DNA of 24,451 nt from a virus. Both the position numbers and the translations under genes were made by a program. The notes under the pieces were generated by a model. It searched no databases. It saw only the letters and a list, made by a program, of their open reading frames with translations, and was not told where the DNA came from. Location: positions 1 to 24,451 of IMG/VR virus record IMGVR_UViG_3300025684_000066; one strand, written 5' to 3'. How positions within the stretch are numbered: position 1 is the first letter of the stretch; each line of letters starts with the position of its first letter. This document shows, piece by piece, positions 20-9,635 of this stretch.

Positions 20-253
20 GTGACCGAACTTACAGATAAAGTAGTAACCGAAGACACCGCTCCAACTTTAACGGTTGGCGATAAAACTTATGTGGTCGCT
101 GATCTTAGCAACGAAGTCAAAGAGATGCTGTCACTTCACGAGCAAGCTATGCAAATGGCCATCGGCGCTAAGCGGCAAGCTGTTATTCATGACCTTGCTG
201 TATCGAACATCGCCTCGTTGATTGAAAAGAAGCTCGCAGAAACCGACGAATGA
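20..253 (+). CDS. small conserved phage protein, DUF6447-like
   Basis: A 77-residue protein with a GTG start at 20, chosen because an AAGGAG Shine-Dalgarno lies about six bases upstream. The segment around residues 17-36 (VGDKTYVVADLSNEVKEML) resembles the 'DGKxYxxxxLSxEAKxxL' opening of DUF6447-type phage proteins. The rest is predicted helical with charged residues, possibly a short coiled coil. The function is unknown. It is the first gene of the tail block and is followed seven bases later by the large virion protein, so co-transcription with the structural genes is likely. The family assignment is from memory of the motif and is tentative; the reading frame itself is secure from its ribosome site and tight packing. 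Confidence 0.7.
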   Translation: MTELTDKVVTEDTAPTLTVGDKTYVVADLSNEVKEMLSLHEQAMQMAIGAKRQAVIHDLAVSNIASLIEKKLAETDE

Positions 254-260
254 GGTACGC

Positions 261-1964
261 ATGGCCTATTTCAAAAGGGATAGATTTAGCGGGATAGCGC
301 CGGGGGTCTCTCCCCGCCTTCTTGCCGAGCAGTTTGGGCAAATAGCCGAGAACGTCGACCTGGAGTCAGGCCGACTAGTTGCGACTAAAACTAACTCCGA
401 TGTTTACACCCTACAGAACACACAGCGCAGATCGATATATCTCTATCGAGACGTGACCTGGCTGGAATGGAGTGAAGACGGGGTTAGTGTTGTGCCTGGA
501 CCTATCCCTGGTGACAGTACTGACCGCCTGTATTTTACAGGCGACGACTACCCTCGAGTAGGCTACGTTTCCAGTTTAGTGCAGGGTAGCTCGGGCTACC
601 CGGTTAACTCTTACCGGCTCGGGGTTCCCGCTCCATCTGGCGCTCCTACAACTACTGTGAATGGCGAAGCGGATGAAACCGCAACACCAAACGACGTGAG
701 TTATGTTTATACTCTTGTCACAGAGTTAGGAGAAGAAGGCCCACCAAGCAGCCCAAGCGCTGTTATTGAGCTGACTGATAATCAGTCGGTGACCGTAGGC
801 TTACCAGGCTCTCAGCAGCCTTCGGGCAATTATTTGTTTGGTACGGGCGCGTTGAAGCGCATATATCGGTCTAATACTGGTAGCACAAACACTACCTTTC
901 AGTTTGTTGGACAAGTCCCGTACACCTCGGTCGTTTTTACGGACACGGTTGACGCGGCGGCTTTAGGTGAAGTTCTACCAAGCGACACTTGGGTTGGCCC
1001 GCCCGATGACAACCTGACGCTGTACCCTGATGGCCCATTGAAAGGCCTGATCCCTCTCGCACAAGGCGTGATGGCAGGTTTTACAGGTAAGCGTTTCTGT
1101 CTCAGCGAGCCTTTTCTACCGCACGCTTGGCCCGTGCAATATAGAATCACAACAGAAGAAGACATCGTCGCGATAGCTAGCACCGCAAATGGTGTGGCAG
1201 CGCTTACCGATGGTCAGCCCTACTTTATTACTGGCACCGATCCGTCAGCCATGACCGCGATCCGTATAGACTTAGCGCAAGCCTGTGTCAACATACACAG
1301 CGTCGTGGATATGGGTAGCTATGTCCTGTATGCAGGCCCAGACGGTTTATGTGCCGTGGAAGGCGCTTCGGGGTCCGTGGTCTCAAGCGGCCTCATCTCA
1401 GCCAAGCAATGGAACTCTACTTTTAACCCAACAACTATTCGCGCGTTTAGGCATGAAGGAACGTATGTAGCGTTCCATTCAACCGGAGGCTGGGTTTACG
1501 ACCCTCGGGGCGAAGAGAACGCGTTGACCACTTTGTCTATTTCCGCTGAGGTACGCGGCGGGTACATGAACCCGAAAGACGGTGAGCTTTACGTGATAGT
1601 TGGCAACAAGATTCAGAAATACCGCGGTGGTACAGCAAACAAGACCGCGATTTTTAAGAGCAAGAAGTTCGTTACCCCCGCTCCAGTGTCGATGGGCTGG
1701 GTATCTGTCCACGCCAATGAGTACCCAGTCACTGTAAAAGTCTGGGGAGATGGTGTTCTTGTTTCTCATTATGTACTTAGTAAATCTAATGGAACATATA
1801 CACAGACAACTACTGTGCCTAGCGGCATTATCAACGGCACACTGCGCGAACCAATAATGCGCATGCCTGCTGTCGTAGCGCAAGAGTGGGAGATTCAGGT
1901 CGAAGGGACGGACATTAATGAGTTCTGTCTTGCTCAATCGATGGAGGAAATTCGAGCCTTATGA
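261..1964 (+). CDS. virion structural protein, probable tail/neck protein with Fn3-like and propeller-like strands
   Basis: A 567-residue protein. The frame is open from 222, but the start at 261 (MAYFKRDRFSG) is preferred because GAGGT lies just upstream and the earlier ATG overlaps the preceding gene. The N-terminus (GIAPGVSPRLL, then QIAENVDLESGRL) is of the kind found at the start of phage tail/neck proteins that recur in marine phages. Residues about 115-200 read as an Fn3-like beta domain (SYVYTLVTELGEEGPPS). The remainder is rich in short beta strands with Gly turns, compatible with a beta-propeller nozzle-like fold. It has no catalytic motif or signal peptide. Its TGA overlaps the ATG of the tail fibre gene, indicating translational coupling. 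The structural role is inferred from context and composition; the exact position in the virion is unknown. Confidence 0.7.
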   Translation: MAYFKRDRFSGIAPGVSPRLLAEQFGQIAENVDLESGRLVATKTNSDVYTLQNTQRRSIYLYRDVTWLEWSEDGVSVVPGPIPGDSTDRLYFTGDDYPRVGYVSSLVQGSSGYPVNSYRLGVPAPSGAPTTTVNGEADETATPNDVSYVYTLVTELGEEGPPSSPSAVIELTDNQSVTVGLPGSQQPSGNYLFGTGALKRIYRSNTGSTNTTFQFVGQVPYTSVVFTDTVDAAALGEVLPSDTWVGPPDDNLTLYPDGPLKGLIPLAQGVMAGFTGKRFCLSEPFLPHAWPVQYRITTEEDIVAIASTANGVAALTDGQPYFITGTDPSAMTAIRIDLAQACVNIHSVVDMGSYVLYAGPDGLCAVEGASGSVVSSGLISAKQWNSTFNPTTIRAFRHEGTYVAFHSTGGWVYDPRGEENALTTLSISAEVRGGYMNPKDGELYVIVGNKIQKYRGGTANKTAIFKSKKFVTPAPVSMGWVSVHANEYPVTVKVWGDGVLVSHYVLSKSNGTYTQTTTVPSGIINGTLREPIMRMPAVVAQEWEIQVEGTDINEFCLAQSMEEIRAL

Positions 1965-4900
1965 GACCGACTCCGACAAAAATTCCTGGGATACCTAAAC
2001 CTCCGTCAGATGTTTCTGCAGCACTAAGAAAATATTTAGAGAGCCTCAGCGAAGCCATGGAGATACGACTAGGACGCAGAGGCGACCCAGTTGATCGGGC
2101 TATTACGCTGCGCGAGTTGATCACGTCTGGGCTCGCAGTAGAATTAAAAGCTAGCCCCTTTGACCCAAACAACATTACTCGAGCCAATATTGGCCTGAGC
2201 GCTGACGACTTTGTTGTTGCTGATGTCCCTTTACCGCCGACAGGTTTTATTGCTAGCGCGGCTTACAGCCAGGTCAACCTACTTTGGGATATGCCACGTT
2301 ATACGGGGCATGCGCAGACAGAGATCTGGTCCCATACTGCAGATATTATTGGAGATGCGACGTTAGCCGCTGTTTCTGTTGGGCGCGGTACAATTGACCC
2401 GGTTGGTGGTGGGGTTTCACGCTACTACTGGGTAAGACACGTGAACCAAAATGGAGTTCACGGGCCTTTCAATAGCAGCAACGGTACTCTAGCGACGACC
2501 GCTACTAACCCTACGGCGATTTTGAATGAGTTGACGGGAGCTATCTCTGTCAGCCAGCTGTCTCAATCCCTTGCGAACCAGATTGACGGTTCTGGGTCTG
2601 CGGTAGATCTCGCGAACCTAGAGACCTTCGTTGGCTATGTCAGCAGCTACGACGTAGCGGCTGCTGGGAACCTGTTAAGCAGGCTTGGAAGCGTAGAGGT
2701 CAGCGCAGCAGGCCTTGTGACTACCTATGGAAATACCGCGGCATCTGCGTCTTCCGCCGCTGCGGCTAACACTGCTGCTGCAGAGGCTTTGGCCGCTAAA
2801 GTAGCAGCCCTTGCTGCTCAAACTGGGGCAGAAGCGGCAGAAGATATCGCAGTAATTGCGAGGACGGCAGCAATCACAGCTCAAAGCTCCGCAGAAGCAG
2901 CGTCTACAGCCTCTGTTGCAGCAAACTTACTAGCTCAAGCGGCCCAGACAGGAGCGGAAACCGCAGAAACTGGGGCGAGTACGGCTCTGGCAGACGCTTT
3001 GACTGCGAAAGTAGCGGCGATAGCTGCACAAGCTGGGGCAGAAACGGCAGAAGATAACGCGGAGATTGCAAAGACCGCTGCGCAAACTGCGAAAGCTGGG
3101 GCTGAAACAGCGCAGACAGCCGCCTCGAGCGCTGCAACAAGCGCTTCCGGGTCAGCTTCATCTGCAAACACCTCCGCTACGACCGCTGCAACCTCTGCGA
3201 ACAATGCAGGTAGCTCAGCCTCGGCGGCGGCAACAAGTGCTTCAACAGCAGCTACTTATGCTACCGATGCTGGCACTGCTTCTAGTGCAGCTAATACAGC
3301 TAAACTTGCTGCAGAAACTGCGCAGTCTGGTGCTGAAACCGCAGAAACTAACGCGGCTTCTTCTGCAACGACCGCGCTGGGTTCAGCTGCCTCCGCTGCG
3401 ACATCAGCTACTACCGCCGCGAACTCTGCAAACTCAGCGGGCGATAGCGCAACAGCTGCGGCGACAAGCGCCGCATCAGCCGCTACTTATGCTACTGATG
3501 CAGGTACGGCGTCTACTGCAGCTCAATCAAGTAGCCTTTCAGCTTCCTCGAGTTTAGCTGGGGCCCAAGCCGCCGCGTCTGACGCTGAAGACGCTCAAGC
3601 TAATGCAGGTGCATCGGCCTCTGCCGCTGCGACAAGCGCAACTACTGCTGCAACAAGCGCAACTACTGCTGGAACAAAAGCCGCGTTAGCTTCCCAGTCA
3701 GAGCTTGCCGCTGAGACTGCGGAGGCAAACGCAGTAACTGCTGCGACTTCTGCTGCGAACTCAGCTACCAACGCGGACTCCTCTGAAGCAAACGCCGCTA
3801 CCTCAGCCGTAAATGCCGCGCAATCTGAGAACCAGGCGTCAGGGGCAGCTAGTGCAGCTTCTACATCTGCGTCTCTTGCATCAACACGCGCAACAGCTGC
3901 AGGAACATCTGCTGGTGCTGCTGAAACTGCTAAAACCGCAGCGGAGACTGCACGGTCTGGTGCTGAGACGGCTGAAACAAATGCTGCTACGAGCGAGACA
4001 AATGCAGCTGGGTCTCAAGCTGCTGCAGCAAACAGTGCTACCGTTGCCGCGAACAGCGCGACTCAGTCAGGACAGTCAGCTACTGCAGCAGCTAACTCGG
4101 CGACTACTGCTTCAACTAAAGCGACAGATGCTAGTCAGGCGGCGGCAGTAGCGACTACGGCTAAATTAGCCGCAGAAACAGCTAAGAGCGGCGCTGAGAC
4201 GGCTGAAACAAATGCTGCCACGAGTGAGTCTAACGCAAATGGCAGCGCGTCAGCTGCAGGAGTATCCGCAACCCAAGCAGCGAATTCTGCAACACAGTCT
4301 GGTGCATCTGCCGGAGCGGCGGCAGGAAGTGCAAGTATTGCAAGTAGTAAAGCGACAGAGGCCAGCCAGTCGGCTGTTTCTGCTACAGAAGCTAAGAACC
4401 TTGCAGTGACTGCCAAGGCAGACGCCGAGTCTGCTCGTAACAACGCGGCTGCTAGTGAGTCAAATGCAAGTGGCAGTGCAGCAGCAGCAGGGGCATCTGA
4501 AACTAATGCTGCTAGCTCATCTAATACAGCGGGCCAGTCAGCGACAGCTGCAGCTAACTCTGCAAGTGCGGCTTTGGCGCAAGCTACTGCAGCGGGTGTA
4601 TCTGCGGCTTCTGCAACTTCTGCGAAAAATGCAGCAGCCACCTCTGAAAGTAACGCCGCTACCTATCAAAATAACGCTGCACAATCCGCTACTAACGCCA
4701 GTGGTTCAGCGTCAGCTGCAGCGAGCACCGTTAATGGTTTAACCGCTCGCCTAAACAATGCGGGCGGGACTGGCGTCACTGTTGAACAGGCATATAGCGC
4801 TTCCGCGTCCAGCATAGCGGGGTTGCAGGCACAGTACTCGGTCAAGATAGACAACAATGGGCATGTGTCAGGATTCGGGTTAAACAGCGTTGCCGTGGAC

Positions 4901-5302
4901 GGGGTTCCCGAATCGGCGTTCGTGATCCGCGCTGATAAGTTCGCGATTGTCGATCCTGCGTCCACGGCTAATGACTTAACGAACACCCCCTCTGCAGACG
5001 TAGTACCCTTCGGCGTTACAAACGGTGTTGTCTATATCAAAGCGGCAGCGATTCAAGACGCGTCGATCACGTCTGCGAAAATTGGCAGCGTTAATGCAGA
5101 CACGATTACTACGGGCACGCTCAACGTAGCTAATCTAATCGACGCGAACGCCATACAGGCGTCCCAGCTTAATCTCGTTGGTGTAGGCACATTAATCGAC
5201 TTAAAGAGCGCTGCGTCAGGTGGGCGAATGGAGATCCTTAGTGACAGCATCCACGTCTACGATTCAACAGGCGCTATACGTGTGAAGTTGGGAGCGCTTT
5301 AA
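1961..5302 (+). CDS. tail tip / tail fibre protein with J-like C-terminus and long Ala-Ser-Thr repeat shaft
   Basis: This 1113-residue protein is the likely host-recognition component. Its start overlaps the preceding stop as ATGA. Residues 1-80 form an N-terminal attachment region. Residues about 88-180 look like an Fn3 domain (PPTGFIASAAYSQVNLLWD). Residues about 250-925 are an extreme Ala/Ser/Thr/Asn/Glu repeat region resembling the phage fibre repeats of lambda Stf-type proteins, expected to form a trimeric coiled-coil shaft. Residues about 930-1010 (LNNAGGTGVTVEQAY, QYSVKIDNNGHVSGFGLNS, FVIRADKFAI) match the DUF1983-type C-terminal region of lambda tail tip protein J. The last 100 residues contain a stacked 'ITSAKIGSVNADTITTGTLN' strand repeat. 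Combining a J-like tail tip end with an Stf-like shaft in one polypeptide is the notable feature. Confidence 0.85.
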   Translation: MRPTPTKIPGIPKPPSDVSAALRKYLESLSEAMEIRLGRRGDPVDRAITLRELITSGLAVELKASPFDPNNITRANIGLSADDFVVADVPLPPTGFIASAAYSQVNLLWDMPRYTGHAQTEIWSHTADIIGDATLAAVSVGRGTIDPVGGGVSRYYWVRHVNQNGVHGPFNSSNGTLATTATNPTAILNELTGAISVSQLSQSLANQIDGSGSAVDLANLETFVGYVSSYDVAAAGNLLSRLGSVEVSAAGLVTTYGNTAASASSAAAANTAAAEALAAKVAALAAQTGAEAAEDIAVIARTAAITAQSSAEAASTASVAANLLAQAAQTGAETAETGASTALADALTAKVAAIAAQAGAETAEDNAEIAKTAAQTAKAGAETAQTAASSAATSASGSASSANTSATTAATSANNAGSSASAAATSASTAATYATDAGTASSAANTAKLAAETAQSGAETAETNAASSATTALGSAASAATSATTAANSANSAGDSATAAATSAASAATYATDAGTASTAAQSSSLSASSSLAGAQAAASDAEDAQANAGASASAAATSATTAATSATTAGTKAALASQSELAAETAEANAVTAATSAANSATNADSSEANAATSAVNAAQSENQASGAASAASTSASLASTRATAAGTSAGAAETAKTAAETARSGAETAETNAATSETNAAGSQAAAANSATVAANSATQSGQSATAAANSATTASTKATDASQAAAVATTAKLAAETAKSGAETAETNAATSESNANGSASAAGVSATQAANSATQSGASAGAAAGSASIASSKATEASQSAVSATEAKNLAVTAKADAESARNNAAASESNASGSAAAAGASETNAASSSNTAGQSATAAANSASAALAQATAAGVSAASATSAKNAAATSESNAATYQNNAAQSATNASGSASAAASTVNGLTARLNNAGGTGVTVEQAYSASASSIAGLQAQYSVKIDNNGHVSGFGLNSVAVDGVPESAFVIRADKFAIVDPASTANDLTNTPSADVVPFGVTNGVVYIKAAAIQDASITSAKIGSVNADTITTGTLNVANLIDANAIQASQLNLVGVGTLIDLKSAASGGRMEILSDSIHVYDSTGAIRVKLGAL
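3068..4735 (+). repeat. 77-residue (231-bp) super-repeat in the tail fibre shaft
   Basis: Within the fibre gene, units beginning with AK-LAAETAxSGAETAET or a close variant recur with an exact 231-bp period. Unit alanine codons fall at 3068, 3299 and (degenerate) 3530, and again at 3929, 4160, 4391 and 4622; a shorter-spaced copy begins near 3700. 'YATDAGTAS' recurs 231 bp apart near 3250 and 3482. The 26-bp stretch starting at 3962 recurs at 4193. 77 residues equals exactly eleven heptads, fitting a coiled coil that keeps register across units. Most copies agree at protein level while differing in codon choice, so the repeat is old and not a recent tandem slip. Confidence 0.75.
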
Positions 5303-6347: not shown

Positions 6348-6790
6348 TTAAATATGCTTTTGTTGGTCCAAATGGTGAGGTGCGCTCGATTGTGCACCCT
6401 TCAGATGACGCCCTTTTTCAAGAGGGCCAAGTAGTTGGCGACGACACTTTGCGCGCTTTTGACTACGCCGTACCGGATATGGCAGTGATGGAGGGCTGGT
6501 ATTGGCAAGACGGCTGGGTAAAAACCAAGCCTGAGAGGCCATCTATTTTTCATAAGTGGGAAAACTTTCAGTGGACCCTGGATACAGTAGATCTTGAGGC
6601 CGAAATTCGGGAGCTGCGCGACAGTAAACTGTTCCGCACCGACTGGACACAGTCTCCAGACAGCCCCCTGTCCGATGCCGCTAAAATAGAATGGGCGGCT
6701 TACCGCCAAGCCCTGCGCGATGTACCCGCAAATAACACCACAGTAACTTCACTAGACGAGGTGTCATGGCCGACCCCACCAGGGGGCTAA
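6344..6790 (+). CDS. phage tail assembly chaperone (Phage_tail_APC type)
   Basis: This 148-residue protein carries the characteristic C-terminal signature of the tail assembly chaperone family: RDSKLFRTDWTQSPDSPLSD followed by WAAYRQALRDVP (residues about 92-128). Proteins of this type assist folding or attachment of tail fibres and are normally encoded immediately after the fibre genes, as here. The N-terminal 60 residues (FVGPNGEVRSIVHPSDDAL) read as the usual variable domain. The start overlaps the upstream stop as ATGA, and the TAA stop is directly followed by the next ATG. The assignment is made on the DWTQ and YRQALRD motifs and is fairly secure. Confidence 0.85.
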   Translation: MIKYAFVGPNGEVRSIVHPSDDALFQEGQVVGDDTLRAFDYAVPDMAVMEGWYWQDGWVKTKPERPSIFHKWENFQWTLDTVDLEAEIRELRDSKLFRTDWTQSPDSPLSDAAKIEWAAYRQALRDVPANNTTVTSLDEVSWPTPPGG

Positions 6791-7282
6791 ATGATTGATC
6801 CTATAACTGCTGTTGCAATGGCTACAAGTGCTTTTAAGACTGTCCAGAAGATGGTGGCAATGGGCCGCGAGATCGAAGACACCCTAGGCCAAGTTGGCAA
6901 GTGGTATGGCGCTGTTAGTGACTTCAACGAAGCTAAGAGGCAAGCGGAGAATCCACCTATCTTCCGTAGGCTGGTAGCGTCTAAGTCAGTCGAGCAAGAA
7001 GCGCTAGAGATGTTTGCCCACGATAAGCGAATAAGGCAACAAGAGAAAGAACTGCGAGAGCTGCTGATGTACACCTACGGCCCTGACGCTTACCAAGAGC
7101 TTTTGGGTATGCGTAGGAAGATACGAGAGCAGCGCGAAAAGACGATTTATGCACAGGCCCGCCGCCGAAAGAATGCTTTCTGGGTAACTGTTCAGAGCGC
7201 TGCTCTGGTTCTGCTGTGTGGTGGGCTTTACAAAGTAAGCATGTTTTTATACTTAAACATTAACCAGACCAATATGTCTTAG
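6791..7282 (+). CDS. conserved phage protein with C-terminal membrane anchor
   Basis: A 163-residue protein opening with MIDPITAVAMATSAF, a type I recall as frequent in marine phage genomes just after tail genes. Residues 20-125 are helical and strongly charged (EKELRELLMYTYGPDAYQELL, then RRKIREQREKTIY), and residues about 131-155 form one hydrophobic segment after an Arg/Lys-rich stretch. The topology suggests a large cytoplasmic domain with a C-terminal anchor. Its function is unknown; a role in lysis or membrane interaction is possible from position but unproven. It starts directly after the preceding TAA and ends in TAG, which shows TAG works as a stop codon in this genome. Confidence 0.75.
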   Translation: MIDPITAVAMATSAFKTVQKMVAMGREIEDTLGQVGKWYGAVSDFNEAKRQAENPPIFRRLVASKSVEQEALEMFAHDKRIRQQEKELRELLMYTYGPDAYQELLGMRRKIREQREKTIYAQARRRKNAFWVTVQSAALVLLCGGLYKVSMFLYLNINQTNMS

Positions 7283-7291
7283 GAGACTGTT

Positions 7292-7387
7292 ATGCACAAT
7301 GGTAAAGGTAAGCAGTGTGTCTTGAACCAACCAGCCAAAAAGAAGAAGCCCACTAAGACTAAAGGTAAAAAGAAAAATGGCTACTGA
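7292..7387 (+). CDS. 31-residue Lys-rich peptide
   Basis: A very small ORF preceded by AGGAGA seven bases before the ATG, which is a strong ribosome site. The product opens MHNGKGKQCVLNQPAKKKK and is about 40 percent lysine, with one cysteine. A nucleic-acid-binding role or simple charge-mediated association is conceivable, but nothing identifies a function. It sits nine bases after the membrane-anchored protein gene, and its 3' end overlaps the start of the next tiny ORF by 11 bases. The reading frame is supported by the ribosome site and gene packing only. Confidence 0.5.
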   Translation: MHNGKGKQCVLNQPAKKKKPTKTKGKKKNGY

Positions 7388-7520
7388 GCGCGACTATAAA
7401 GAGGCGTATCGTTTCTCCTAGTTATACCAGAAGCGGTATGGCCCAGATAACAAAGATACATTTCCGCTGCTCGCTGCTCGCTACTATAATGCCGCCTCAA
7501 CCAACCAGAGGCACATATGA
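7377..7520 (+). pseudogene. 47-codon small gene interrupted by an in-frame amber codon
   Basis: Reading from the ATG at 7377 gives MATERDYKEAYRFS, then TAG at 7419-7421, then in the same frame a further 32 residues (LYQKRYGPDNKDTFPLLAAR and on) ending at TGA 7518-7520. The region after the TAG is protein-like and reaches exactly to the ATGA overlap with the next ORF, as expected of one intact coupled gene. A single C-to-T change in CAG would explain the amber. Options are a nonsense mutation, host amber suppression, or a true 14-residue peptide. The genome elsewhere uses TAG as a stop, so general recoding is unlikely. Confidence 0.45.
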
Positions 7521-7582
7521 TTCTTTACATGATCGGCTTTATCTTAGTAACCCTTGGCGCTATCGCTCAGCAAGACCTGTAG
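7517..7582 (+). CDS. 21-residue hydrophobic single-span peptide
   Basis: The product opens MILYMIGFILVTLGAIAQ and ends in QDL, so it is one transmembrane segment and little else. AGAGG lies six bases before the ATG, and the ATG overlaps the upstream TGA. It ends in TAG. Its size is that of known phage micro-membrane proteins, some of which act in lysis or superinfection exclusion, but no homology is claimed. It is the last plus-strand gene before the attachment region. Confidence 0.45.
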   Translation: MILYMIGFILVTLGAIAQQDL

Positions 7583-7583
7583 G

Positions 7584-7598
7584 TGTGACACTGTCACA
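7584..7598. repeat. 15-bp inverted repeat TGTGACA-C-TGTCACA
   Basis: A perfect 7-bp inverted repeat around one central base. Each arm contains the hexamer GTCACA (one in each orientation), which also occurs twice beside the integrase start. It could be an integrase arm-type or directionality-factor site, or a regulator binding site. No T-tract follows, so it is not a terminator. Confidence 0.5.
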
Positions 7599-7728
7599 AC
7601 CTAAAGAGAACTAAAACAAATTAAATAGTATTATCAATAAGTTACGAGCTTCTAGCGCAGACGGCCTAGTAGATCTAAATATAGGTTAAGTCATTGAAAT
7701 AGAAACAAAAGTAGCAATGCGGGGCACA

Positions 7729-7748
7729 GAATCCCTCTCTCTCCGCCA
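7729..7748 (+). other. putative attP core, identical in form to a tRNA-Ser 3' end
   Basis: The 20 bases GAATCCCTCTCTCTCCGCCA have the layout of the end of a bacterial tRNA-Ser: T-stem 3' strand, acceptor 3' strand TCTCTCC, discriminator G and encoded CCA. The sequence upstream (GGGGCACA) does not pair to make a T-arm, so no complete tRNA is present. Tyrosine integrases commonly use tRNA 3' ends as attB, with the identity block carried in attP next to int, as seen here. The match was made by eye against general knowledge of tRNA-Ser. Confidence 0.65.
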
Positions 7749-7761
7749 TACATTTAAGTGC

Positions 7762-7789
7762 TTGTTTTACAAAGAAAAAGCGATATCAT
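7762..7789 (+). promoter_or_regulatory. predicted sigma70 promoter for the integrase
   Basis: TTGTTT, a 16-bp spacer and TATCAT lie about 33 bases before the integrase ATG. The -10 differs from TATAAT at one position and the -35 matches four of six. It is the only reasonable promoter-like pair in the gap. No experimental support. Confidence 0.4.
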
Positions 7790-7799
7790 AAAGGCTCCA

Positions 7800-7816
7800 G
7801 TCACAGCAGGGTCACA
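7800..7816 (+). repeat. two GTCACA direct repeats, 11-bp phased, before the integrase start
   Basis: GTCACA occurs at 7800-7805 and 7811-7816, about one helical turn apart, just before the integrase ATG at 7822. Together with the inverted pair at 7584-7598 they bracket the attP-like core, as arm-type integrase sites do in lambda-like attP regions. They could also autoregulate int, since they overlap its leader. Confidence 0.45.
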
Positions 7817-7821
7817 ATGAT

Positions 7822-8820
7822 ATGGCAACCGTACGGAAACGCGGCAACAAGTACCAGGCTCAGGTACGCGTCAAAGGGCACACACCTCAATCAAAATCCT
7901 TCCTAACTAAAGCAGCCGCCGACGCATGGTGTAGGCGCATAGAGTCGAGCATGGACAACGGTTCGTGGATCGATACTCGCGAATCACGGTCCGTGCTCAT
8001 CGAGAATATAGTGGACGATCTGGTCTACTCTTACGAGCGGTTCGGTCTCGAAGTGGCAGGCCCGAAGCTCGGGCAGCTAAACCAAATCAAAGAATACTTC
8101 CACGGGACTTCCCTGCATGACATGACTGTAGACGACGTTTTAACCTTTGCGGCGTATAGGAAGGAAACTGTTTGTGCAAGCACACTGCAGACGCAGATGT
8201 ATTATTTGAAGCAAGCGATTGAAAATAGCAGGATAAAAACTGAACAGCCCGTAGTAGATATAGCGATCGACGAGCTGAAGAAGAAGAAAATTATTATGGG
8301 GAGTCAGCGCCGTGACCGCCGCCTGGAAGAAGGTGAGTATGACGCGTTGATGGATGAGGCTGGCGGACACTGGATAGGGCTAACAATCGACTTAGCGATT
8401 GAATCAGGGATGCGGCAGGGAGAAATCCATGCTCTGAAATGGTCTGACATCGACGAAAAGAAAGGCGTAATCAGGCTACTGCGCAAGGACAAGCACGCTG
8501 AGACAGGACAAACAAAGAGCGTAATTCCCCTTTTAAAGGGCGTGAGAGAGGCGCTCCTACGTGCACAGAATGTGTTTGGGCAAGGCCCGAACCTTATCCC
8601 TGCAAAGCGTGCAGCAAGCATTTCGGACAAGTTTGCCAAGATGACTAAGAAGCTGGGGATTGAAGACTTGCGCTTCCATGATTTACGGCACGAAGCGATT
8701 AGTCGAATGTTTGAACGCGGTATGAGGGTAGAGCAAGTGAGGGTGGTATCAGGCCACCGCACACTTGATCAGTTGAGCAGGTACATTAACTTGCGTGCGG
8801 AAGATTTAGCAGGCTTGTAA
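7822..8820 (+). CDS. int: tyrosine recombinase, phage integrase
   Basis: A 332-residue site-specific recombinase expected to insert the phage DNA at a host tRNA-Ser and, with an excisionase, remove it. Residues 1-45 form an AP2-like arm-binding region (VRKRGNKYQAQVRVKG), residues about 55-145 the core-binding SAM-like domain, and residues about 165-325 the catalytic domain. The catalytic set is visible: R198 (SGMRQGEI), H286 and R289 (HDLRHEA), H312 (GHRT) and the nucleophile Y321, with a candidate lysine in the 222-232 hairpin. Length is normal and no key residue is missing. It is the only plus-strand gene right of the tail block and converges with the xis-like gene, overlapping it by 35 bases. 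Confidence 0.95.
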   Translation: MATVRKRGNKYQAQVRVKGHTPQSKSFLTKAAADAWCRRIESSMDNGSWIDTRESRSVLIENIVDDLVYSYERFGLEVAGPKLGQLNQIKEYFHGTSLHDMTVDDVLTFAAYRKETVCASTLQTQMYYLKQAIENSRIKTEQPVVDIAIDELKKKKIIMGSQRRDRRLEEGEYDALMDEAGGHWIGLTIDLAIESGMRQGEIHALKWSDIDEKKGVIRLLRKDKHAETGQTKSVIPLLKGVREALLRAQNVFGQGPNLIPAKRAASISDKFAKMTKKLGIEDLRFHDLRHEAISRMFERGMRVEQVRVVSGHRTLDQLSRYINLRAEDLAGL

Positions 8821-8998
8821 GGTAGGCGGCAACTCCTAAAGTTGGGAATAAGTATTTTTTCCCACGTTTGATGTGAGGGATATCAAGCATCCCTCGGTAA
8901 GTTTGTTGGTAGATTGTTTGTTTTTTAACTTTTAACAGTAAGGCCAGTTCTTCTAAGTCCATGAAAGGGCCGTATTTTTCTAATAGAAGTGTTTCCAA
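8786..8998 (-). CDS. small HTH protein, AlpA/excisionase-like
   Basis: A 70-residue protein with a MerR/HTH_17-type winged-helix pattern: MDLEELALLLKVKKQTIYQ, a turn, then HIKRGKKYLFPTLGVAAYL. This is the usual form of recombination directionality factors and AlpA-like regulators. Its position tail-to-tail with the integrase supports an excisionase role. The longest frame uses a TTG start at 8998; an ATG at 8962 is possible, though it would trim the N-terminus, and neither has a strong ribosome site. Two operator-like repeats lie just upstream (9032-9068), so its expression is probably controlled by the phage repressor. Confidence 0.7.
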   Translation of the reverse strand: METLLLEKYGPFMDLEELALLLKVKKQTIYQQTYRGMLDIPHIKRGKKYLFPTLGVAAYLTSLLNLPHAS

Positions 8999-9031
8999 TT
9001 CCGGTTTGTCCTTAACCTACCGATCGTTTTA

Positions 9032-9068
9032 TAATAGTAATGCTATTATTGGAATAGTAAAGCTTTAT
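9032..9068 (-). promoter_or_regulatory. two tandem operator-like repeats upstream of the xis-like gene
   Basis: TAATAGT-AAT-GCTATTA at 9032-9048 is a 17-bp 7-3-7 inverted repeat that fits the consensus shared with other early promoters of the window. GAATAGT-AAA-GCTTTAT at 9052-9068 is a weaker second copy (10 of 14 arm positions), 20 bp away, overlapping the stop of the XRE gene. On the minus strand TATTAT/TATAAA elements within the first site could serve as a -10 for the xis-like gene. Confidence 0.55.
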
Positions 9069-9635
9069 TTAGGAATATGTTACTGACACAACCGACCAGA
9101 GGTGCGAGATTTTTGCGGCTGGGGGCACGTCGTTTGGTAAATAAAACTTGATCGTTTTTTGTGCTTTTAATCGGGCAGCAAACATTTTTGGCTCGCGCAT
9201 ATTAGCGGGTTTAGTTAGGCGGACGTAGCAGCTCATAGCTGGGCACGGTGATTCAAAGGTGTCCCTGTATGCTGCGGAAGTGTGTGGGACTTCAATTAGA
9301 AAAGACTCATCGTCTGATCTGCTGAAGATTACTTTATCGATTGGCGTGGTCATGTCATTAGCAGACCATTTGACATTTTTTCGCGTTATGCTTGGCAGAC
9401 TCTCTTCTATATTAGGGTCAATGTCTCTAGGATCTACATCTAAGAAGTTGGCTAGCTTTATGATGGCTGGGGCTCGCATCTCAGTGATCCCAGATAGGTA
9501 ATGGCTTATTGCACCTTGGGTCCAGCCAAGTTCTTTGGCAGCGGTTACTTGGGTGAATCGCATCTCTAGACGTTTTTTATTCCAGATCTTGCGGAGATTT
9601 TTTACTATTGTTGGAAATTCGTCTCTTGTGTTCAT
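9069..9635 (-). CDS. XRE-family transcriptional regulator, candidate phage repressor
   Basis: A 188-residue protein. Residues about 26-66 form a lambda-repressor-like helix-turn-helix (TQVTAAKELGWTQGAISHYL, then APAIIKLANFLDVDP). The C-terminal half is beta-rich but shows no clear Ser/Lys dyad of an S24/LexA peptidase, so self-cleavage is not supported. AGGAGG seven bases upstream defines the ATG at 9635. The gene overlaps the end of the VRR-NUC gene by 59 bases and points the same way as the replication genes, which is unusual for a CI-type repressor. It is the only HTH regulator of this type in the window and the best candidate to bind the 17-bp repeats. A Cro-like or late regulator is the alternative. 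Confidence 0.85.
   Translation of the reverse strand: MNTRDEFPTIVKNLRKIWNKKRLEMRFTQVTAAKELGWTQGAISHYLSGITEMRAPAIIKLANFLDVDPRDIDPNIEESLPSITRKNVKWSANDMTTPIDKVIFSRSDDESFLIEVPHTSAAYRDTFESPCPAMSCYVRLTKPANMREPKMFAARLKAQKTIKFYLPNDVPPAAKISHLWSVVSVTYS

Follow-up and report, generated by a model that had tools for sequence, protein, structure and literature searches.

The window, by which we mean the whole stretch of 24,451 nucleotides of viral DNA analysed here, changes character around a 20-bp block that precedes an integrase gene (Table 1). To the left of it lie virion and tail genes, encoding a phrog_511 protein, a tail fibre and a tail fibre assembly protein. To the right, int is followed by early genes on the opposite strand, which encode an HTH_17 protein, an HTH_3 regulator, a helicase, an exonuclease, a primase-like protein and DNA polymerase A. 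As regards a temperate life, genes for a regulator, an integrase and an HTH_17 protein are present. The integrase has the R...HxxR...H...Y catalytic domain of the tyrosine recombinase family, with residues R198, H286-x-x-R289, H312 and Y321 invariant across 16 aligned sequences. We consider the HTH_17 protein a candidate excisionase or directionality factor and the HTH_3 regulator a candidate immunity repressor. Its identity to the counterparts in relatives is often only 33–56%, where the flanking helicase and Pam3-gp34-like proteins often reach about 70–88%; such divergence is what a diversifying immunity repressor would show.

Two further features of the left side may be mentioned. The tail fibre (1961–5302, + strand; 1113 aa) contains a long low-complexity repeat region rich in Ala, Ser and Thr, and a small lysine-rich ORF (7292–7387, + strand; MHNGKGKQCVLNQPAKKKKPTKTKGKKKNGY) lies beside the tail genes, towards attP, with a similar counterpart (MHKGKKCYVNAPPGKKVGAKKPKKKGY) in the relative L346 discussed below.

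Table 1. Genes and predicted recombination elements around the block (window coordinates)
Feature	Position	Strand	Support or remark
Virion protein phrog_511	222..1964	+	E=4.1e-139; left of attP
Candidate integrase arm-type site TAACTTATTGAT, P arm, inverted	7633..7644	-	position conserved relative to core
Candidate arm-type site TAAGTCATTGAA, P arm, direct	7687..7698	+	conserved motif
Left core-type arm GGGGCACAGA (predicted)	7721..7730	+	imperfect inverted copy of right arm, 7/10
Predicted attP core, identity block with host tRNA-Ser 3′ end (G57–CCA76)	7729..7748	+	64/64 host copies, 37/37 viral loci
Inferred 7-bp overlap (strand-exchange) region ATCCCTC	7731..7737	+	invariant in 43/43 direct-oriented attP sites
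Right core-type arm TCTCTCCGCC (predicted), common to host acceptor stem	7738..7747	+	
Candidate arm-type site TAAGTGCTTGTT, P′ arm	7755..7766	+	conserved motif
Tyrosine integrase, 332 aa	7822..8820	+	Pfam PF00589 E=4.8e-20; phrog_1 E=2.8e-37
HTH_17 protein, 70 aa, 3′ end overlaps int	8786..8998	-	PF12728 E=6.6e-9; adjoins int in nearly all relatives
HTH_3 regulator	9069..9635	-	profile matches

A tRNA-Ser 3′ end upstream of int

The block (GAATCCCTCTCTCTCCGCCA; surrounding sequence 7721–7766, GGGGCACAGAATCCCTCTCTCTCCGCCATACATTTAAGTGCTTG) matches letter for letter the 3′ end of a bacterial tRNA-Ser, from G57 in the T-loop to the CCA. In tRNA numbering it comprises G57 A58 A59 T60, the T-stem strand CCCTC (61–65), the acceptor strand TCTCTCC (66–72), G73 and CCA. 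The original prediction had proposed an attP core with this very layout beside a tyrosine integrase, and the presence of the tRNA-Ser 3′ end was confirmed. All 64 host loci containing the 20-mer that we fetched are exact tRNA-Ser 3′ ends, with the anticodons GCT (30), GGA (24), CGA (8) and TGA (2), and in 63 of them GAGGGTTC directly precedes the 20-mer. The tRNA-Ser reading of the block is firm. Since no complete tRNA was found in the whole window and an Rfam scan of it gave zero hits, the block is a 3′ fragment only. As an exact fragment extending to CCA, located beside int and without a full tRNA, it has the composition of an attP site of the tRNA 3′-end (T-loop/J) class; the limitation of the tRNA identity to 20 bp counts against the attP reading.

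The 20-mer occurs once in the window, even with up to 3 mismatches allowed (0.00 copies expected by chance), and is absent from 100 dinucleotide shuffles of the window. A comparison of positions 6500–9500 with annotated phages by DNA similarity gave no match. Scanning IMG/VR with the integrase yielded 37 viral loci with integrases 41–100% identical to that of the window. All 37 carry the block, with few changes at most, about 90–110 bp before int and within an otherwise variable spacer. In a maximum-likelihood tree, whose long branches make the deep order unsure, the window falls into a clade of 30 sampled rows with a direct core, and L130 alone among them has a changed core. The best integrase among the matches listed from the genome collection is 35% identical, with no close integrase found, and the closest among the phage records listed, Marinobacter phage PS6, has one that is ≤33% identical. 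This phage family is known only by distant isolates (integrase 33%, polymerase 35%).

An intergenic position, which is all that speaks for it, would also suit a chance resemblance, a promoter, a terminator or a tRNA-mimic element in place of an att site. We give this explanation practically no weight in view of the chance expectation of 0.00, the conservation of arms, spacing and integrase neighbour, and a junction found at the block in L346; for the family it is refuted by the comparison of L346 with L154 presented below.

The exact 20-mer is present in 218 of the 369 Gammaproteobacteria genomes sampled (59%) and in 52 of 289 sampled Alphaproteobacteria genomes (18%), as against 0 matches for a reversed control pattern in the 658 proteobacterial genomes. 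The idea that the target predicts the host attB is therefore not supported in any strict sense, since proteobacterial tRNA-Ser genes of four anticodon types end in this generic 20-mer. Because it is so common across genomes and anticodons, it places the host within a broad proteobacterial range and no lower. Virion protein searches in Pseudomonadales genomes returned identities of 28–46%, too low for naming a host. This weak resolution agrees with the caution of Mizuno et al. (PMC3861242), for whom att matches alone allow broad phylum- or class-level assignment only.

Anatomy of the predicted attP site

Aligning 36 attP regions of the clade to which the window belongs shows invariance at positions −1 to +6 (A followed by ATCCCTC) and at most of +9 to +17, with variable flanks. 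The invariant heptamer probably corresponds to the overlap region, where strand exchange is predicted. It is bordered by two sequences in inverted orientation. Over 43 sites, the left arm matches the inverted right arm at a mean of 6.0 out of 10 positions, compared to 2.4 for other 10-mers of the same region. Relatives whose core is inverted show up to 10 of 10 matching arm positions around a 7-bp spacer; in L141 and L143 the overlap separates the two halves of a perfect 10-bp palindrome, GGCGGAGAGA-GAGGGAT-TCTCTCCGCC. Core sites of tyrosine recombinases are usually built in this way. At the sequence level, the region thus resembles a bipartite attP of the Lambda type, in which inverted core arms surround an overlap of 6–8 bp.

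A motif, TAA[GC][TC]nn[TC]TG[ATC][TA], recurs in many members at offsets of −98 (inverted), −44 (+) and +24 (+) from the overlap, and we read its three copies in the window as candidate arm-type Int sites. There are 127 copies in 70 upstream regions as against 5.5 ± 2.7 in random windows from the same loci, a post hoc count, given that these sequences also served to define the motif by eye. For this reason the fixed spacing of the motif weighs more than its copy number.

Taken as a whole, we estimate at about 93% the probability that 7729–7748 is the core of a complete attP site of a temperate-type phage, whose integrase recombines it with a host tRNA-Ser gene. Direct support comes from the sequence match, its conservation, the tRNA identity, the arm positions and an integrated relative. 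The integrase would bind the imperfectly inverted core arms on either side of ATCCCTC, with the arm-type sites at 7633 (inverted), 7687 and 7755 shaping the Int complex. The attP site would then recombine with the identical sequence at the T-loop/T-stem of the host tRNA-Ser gene, the phage copy of the tRNA 3′ end replacing that of the host so that the tRNA gene stays intact. As a consequence, int should come to lie just downstream of the tRNA and the displaced host 3′ end should mark the far end of the prophage. The HTH_17 protein may take part in the reverse reaction, and lysogeny may occur in nature. The contig itself would represent the unintegrated state, be it circular, replicating or packaged.

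Unintegrated and integrated forms

Integration necessarily puts the remainder of the tRNA gene or host DNA on one side of the core. Phage genes occupy both sides in the window and in its near relatives, in the same order throughout. Two of the sampled loci, L027 and L038, belong to opposite ends of a single 61,091-bp contig, each end with its own int. The repeat shared by these ends is about 3.3 kb long, and joining the contig over it gives a circle of about 57.7 kb which includes attP; the phage size of about 58 kb is taken from this one relative. Searches for integrated forms of the window's clade were negative with a left-junction pattern in viral contigs and with a genome pattern in 369 Gammaproteobacteria genomes. 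A P-arm pattern retrieved 18 contigs, all of them known attP sites and none (0) an attR.

The contig therefore shows the attP form, as proposed, with small caveats. The additional claim that it must come from virion or circular DNA is likely and not forced, because the junction within a tandem double prophage or an extrachromosomal prophage also reads as attP. Indeed, the contig alone would look the same if it were the inner junction of such a tandem or a plasmid-like prophage, a phage-flanked attP being expected there as well. We nevertheless think either origin very improbable. Tandem prophages should also have left outer junctions among the clade relatives, all of which are attP and none attL or attR, and a survey of part of the genes revealed none for partition or plasmid functions.

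Use of the site is best illustrated by a more distant relative. A complete-T-arm pattern gave at least 120 matches in viral contigs, and 72 of the 120 listed contain a full tRNA-Ser according to ARAGORN. Among these listed matches with a full tRNA-Ser, L346 is the sole contig with virion genes of this phage type (tail fibre assembly, tail fibre and phrog_511). In this 7.7-kb contig (1–7739), an intact tRNA-Ser(GGA) at about 186–275 and phage DNA are joined at the core. Over 1.3 kb, this phage DNA shares 80% identity with the P arm of the unintegrated L154, and the homology stops at the core. Judged from this comparison, L346 is a direct case of integration at the block. It holds one junction only. 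Both L346 and L154 are among the phages with a core inverted relative to int, where the tail side takes the place of int next to the tRNA; L346 thus supports the target and the junction but not the polarity predicted for the window. The 185 bp of host DNA upstream of the L346 tRNA could identify the host if matched.

The predicted order of tRNA, core and int is supported by distant integrase relatives in genomes (26–35% identical), most of which are preceded on the same strand, at a distance of 80–300 bp, by an intact tRNA of one kind or another. An example is Microvirga (L069), where a tRNA-Ser(CGA) lies upstream. Two other loci considered as relatives integrated at tRNA-Ser, L204 and L206, were dropped since a tRNA-Arg(acg) lies between tRNA-Ser and integrase (L287, L272).

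It might still be asked whether the site is much used. The attP could be vestigial or little used in a phage that is in practice lytic, with integration a rare dead end. No prophage of the window's clade was found in genomes, the 18 of 18 attP contigs with the P-arm pattern would fit, and T7-like cyanophages are reported to integrate at tRNA-Leu without lysogeny (PMC8776855). This scenario seems unlikely to us, albeit less so than a tandem or extrachromosomal origin, since the HTH_3 regulator and the HTH_17 protein are conserved near int, as are the catalytic residues, the core and the arm sites; moreover, L346 is an integrated relative, and the hosts of the window's clade may be unsampled. 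A functional attP remains our preferred reading.

Core orientation and comparison with known systems

The least expected part of the family is the change in orientation of the site. In L138, L140–L144, L147, L148 and L154 the core is inverted relative to int and forms the near-perfect palindrome GGCGGAGAGA-GAGGGAT-TCTCTCCGCC; integration of these phages would bring the tail side, in place of int, up against the tRNA. L138, L140–L143, L147 and L148 form a separate inverted-core clade in the tree. In a second group (L037, L136, L139, L145, L146, L151 and L155) the whole core-int-HTH_17 cassette is reversed with respect to the virion and replication genes when set beside the window, and L037, L136, L145 and L146 make up another, cassette-inverted clade. 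Within one family with the same tRNA-Ser target, the core may thus have been turned more than once and by two routes, inversion of the 20-bp core or of the entire core-int-HTH cassette. With a near-perfect palindrome, a single integrase could act in either polarity; the orientation of the prophage and the gene adjacent to the tRNA would then change and the target stay the same. We would put the odds of this scenario at about even.

In L152/L153 and L157–L161 (CCCCCTAGGGGACGCCA; GATTCCGACCCGAGCCTCCA), the 3′ ends of other tRNAs replace that of tRNA-Ser, which reads as target switching. Related prophages at other sites had been named in the original prediction as one finding that would speak against it; in a partial check of this, the related phage L346 proved to be integrated at tRNA-Ser, and 3′ ends of different tRNAs were seen in other relatives.

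It is textbook knowledge that phages and islands integrate at the T-loop/T-stem of tRNA genes and that the attP fragment restores the gene; the mechanism proposed here is ordinary and well supported, with nothing new in it. What the site offers for this uncultured family, which has no close isolate, is an exact place of integration whose 7-base overlap is invariant; one relative makes use of it. A second point is how little short tRNA matches can tell about the host, since over half of the sampled Gammaproteobacteria contain these 20 bases. Finally, a family with one target and a flipped core or cassette is a convenient set for studying changes in integrase polarity and target.

The Islander database holds 1836 islands of the J/T class (PMC4383910). 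Tyrosine integrases that target tDNA with a T-loop/J crossover (PMC4383910, which cites Williams 2002) share with the system predicted here the gene-restoring 3′ fragment, the T-loop/T-stem crossover and the adjacent int; here, in contrast, the family is uncultured, with an integrase ≤33% identical to listed phage records (best Marinobacter phage PS6). The same inference from an integrase and a partial tRNA was made for metagenomic marine phages by Mizuno et al. 2013 (PMC3861242), whose matches covered 39–46 bp of tRNA-Leu or 43 bp of tRNA-Val and were narrower, as against 20 bp shared by hundreds of species here. More distant kinship is seen with Pseudomonas phages KPP25 and phiR18 and Aeromonas phage phiA008, which were compared by their DNA polymerase and DUF5906 primase-like protein (29–35% identical). 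The T7-like cyanophages P-SSP7 and S-TIP37 (PMC8776855) likewise combine int with an attP matching a host tRNA gene, and their integration was shown experimentally; their target is tRNA-Leu with attP downstream of int, whereas in the phages described here it is tRNA-Ser, with attP upstream.
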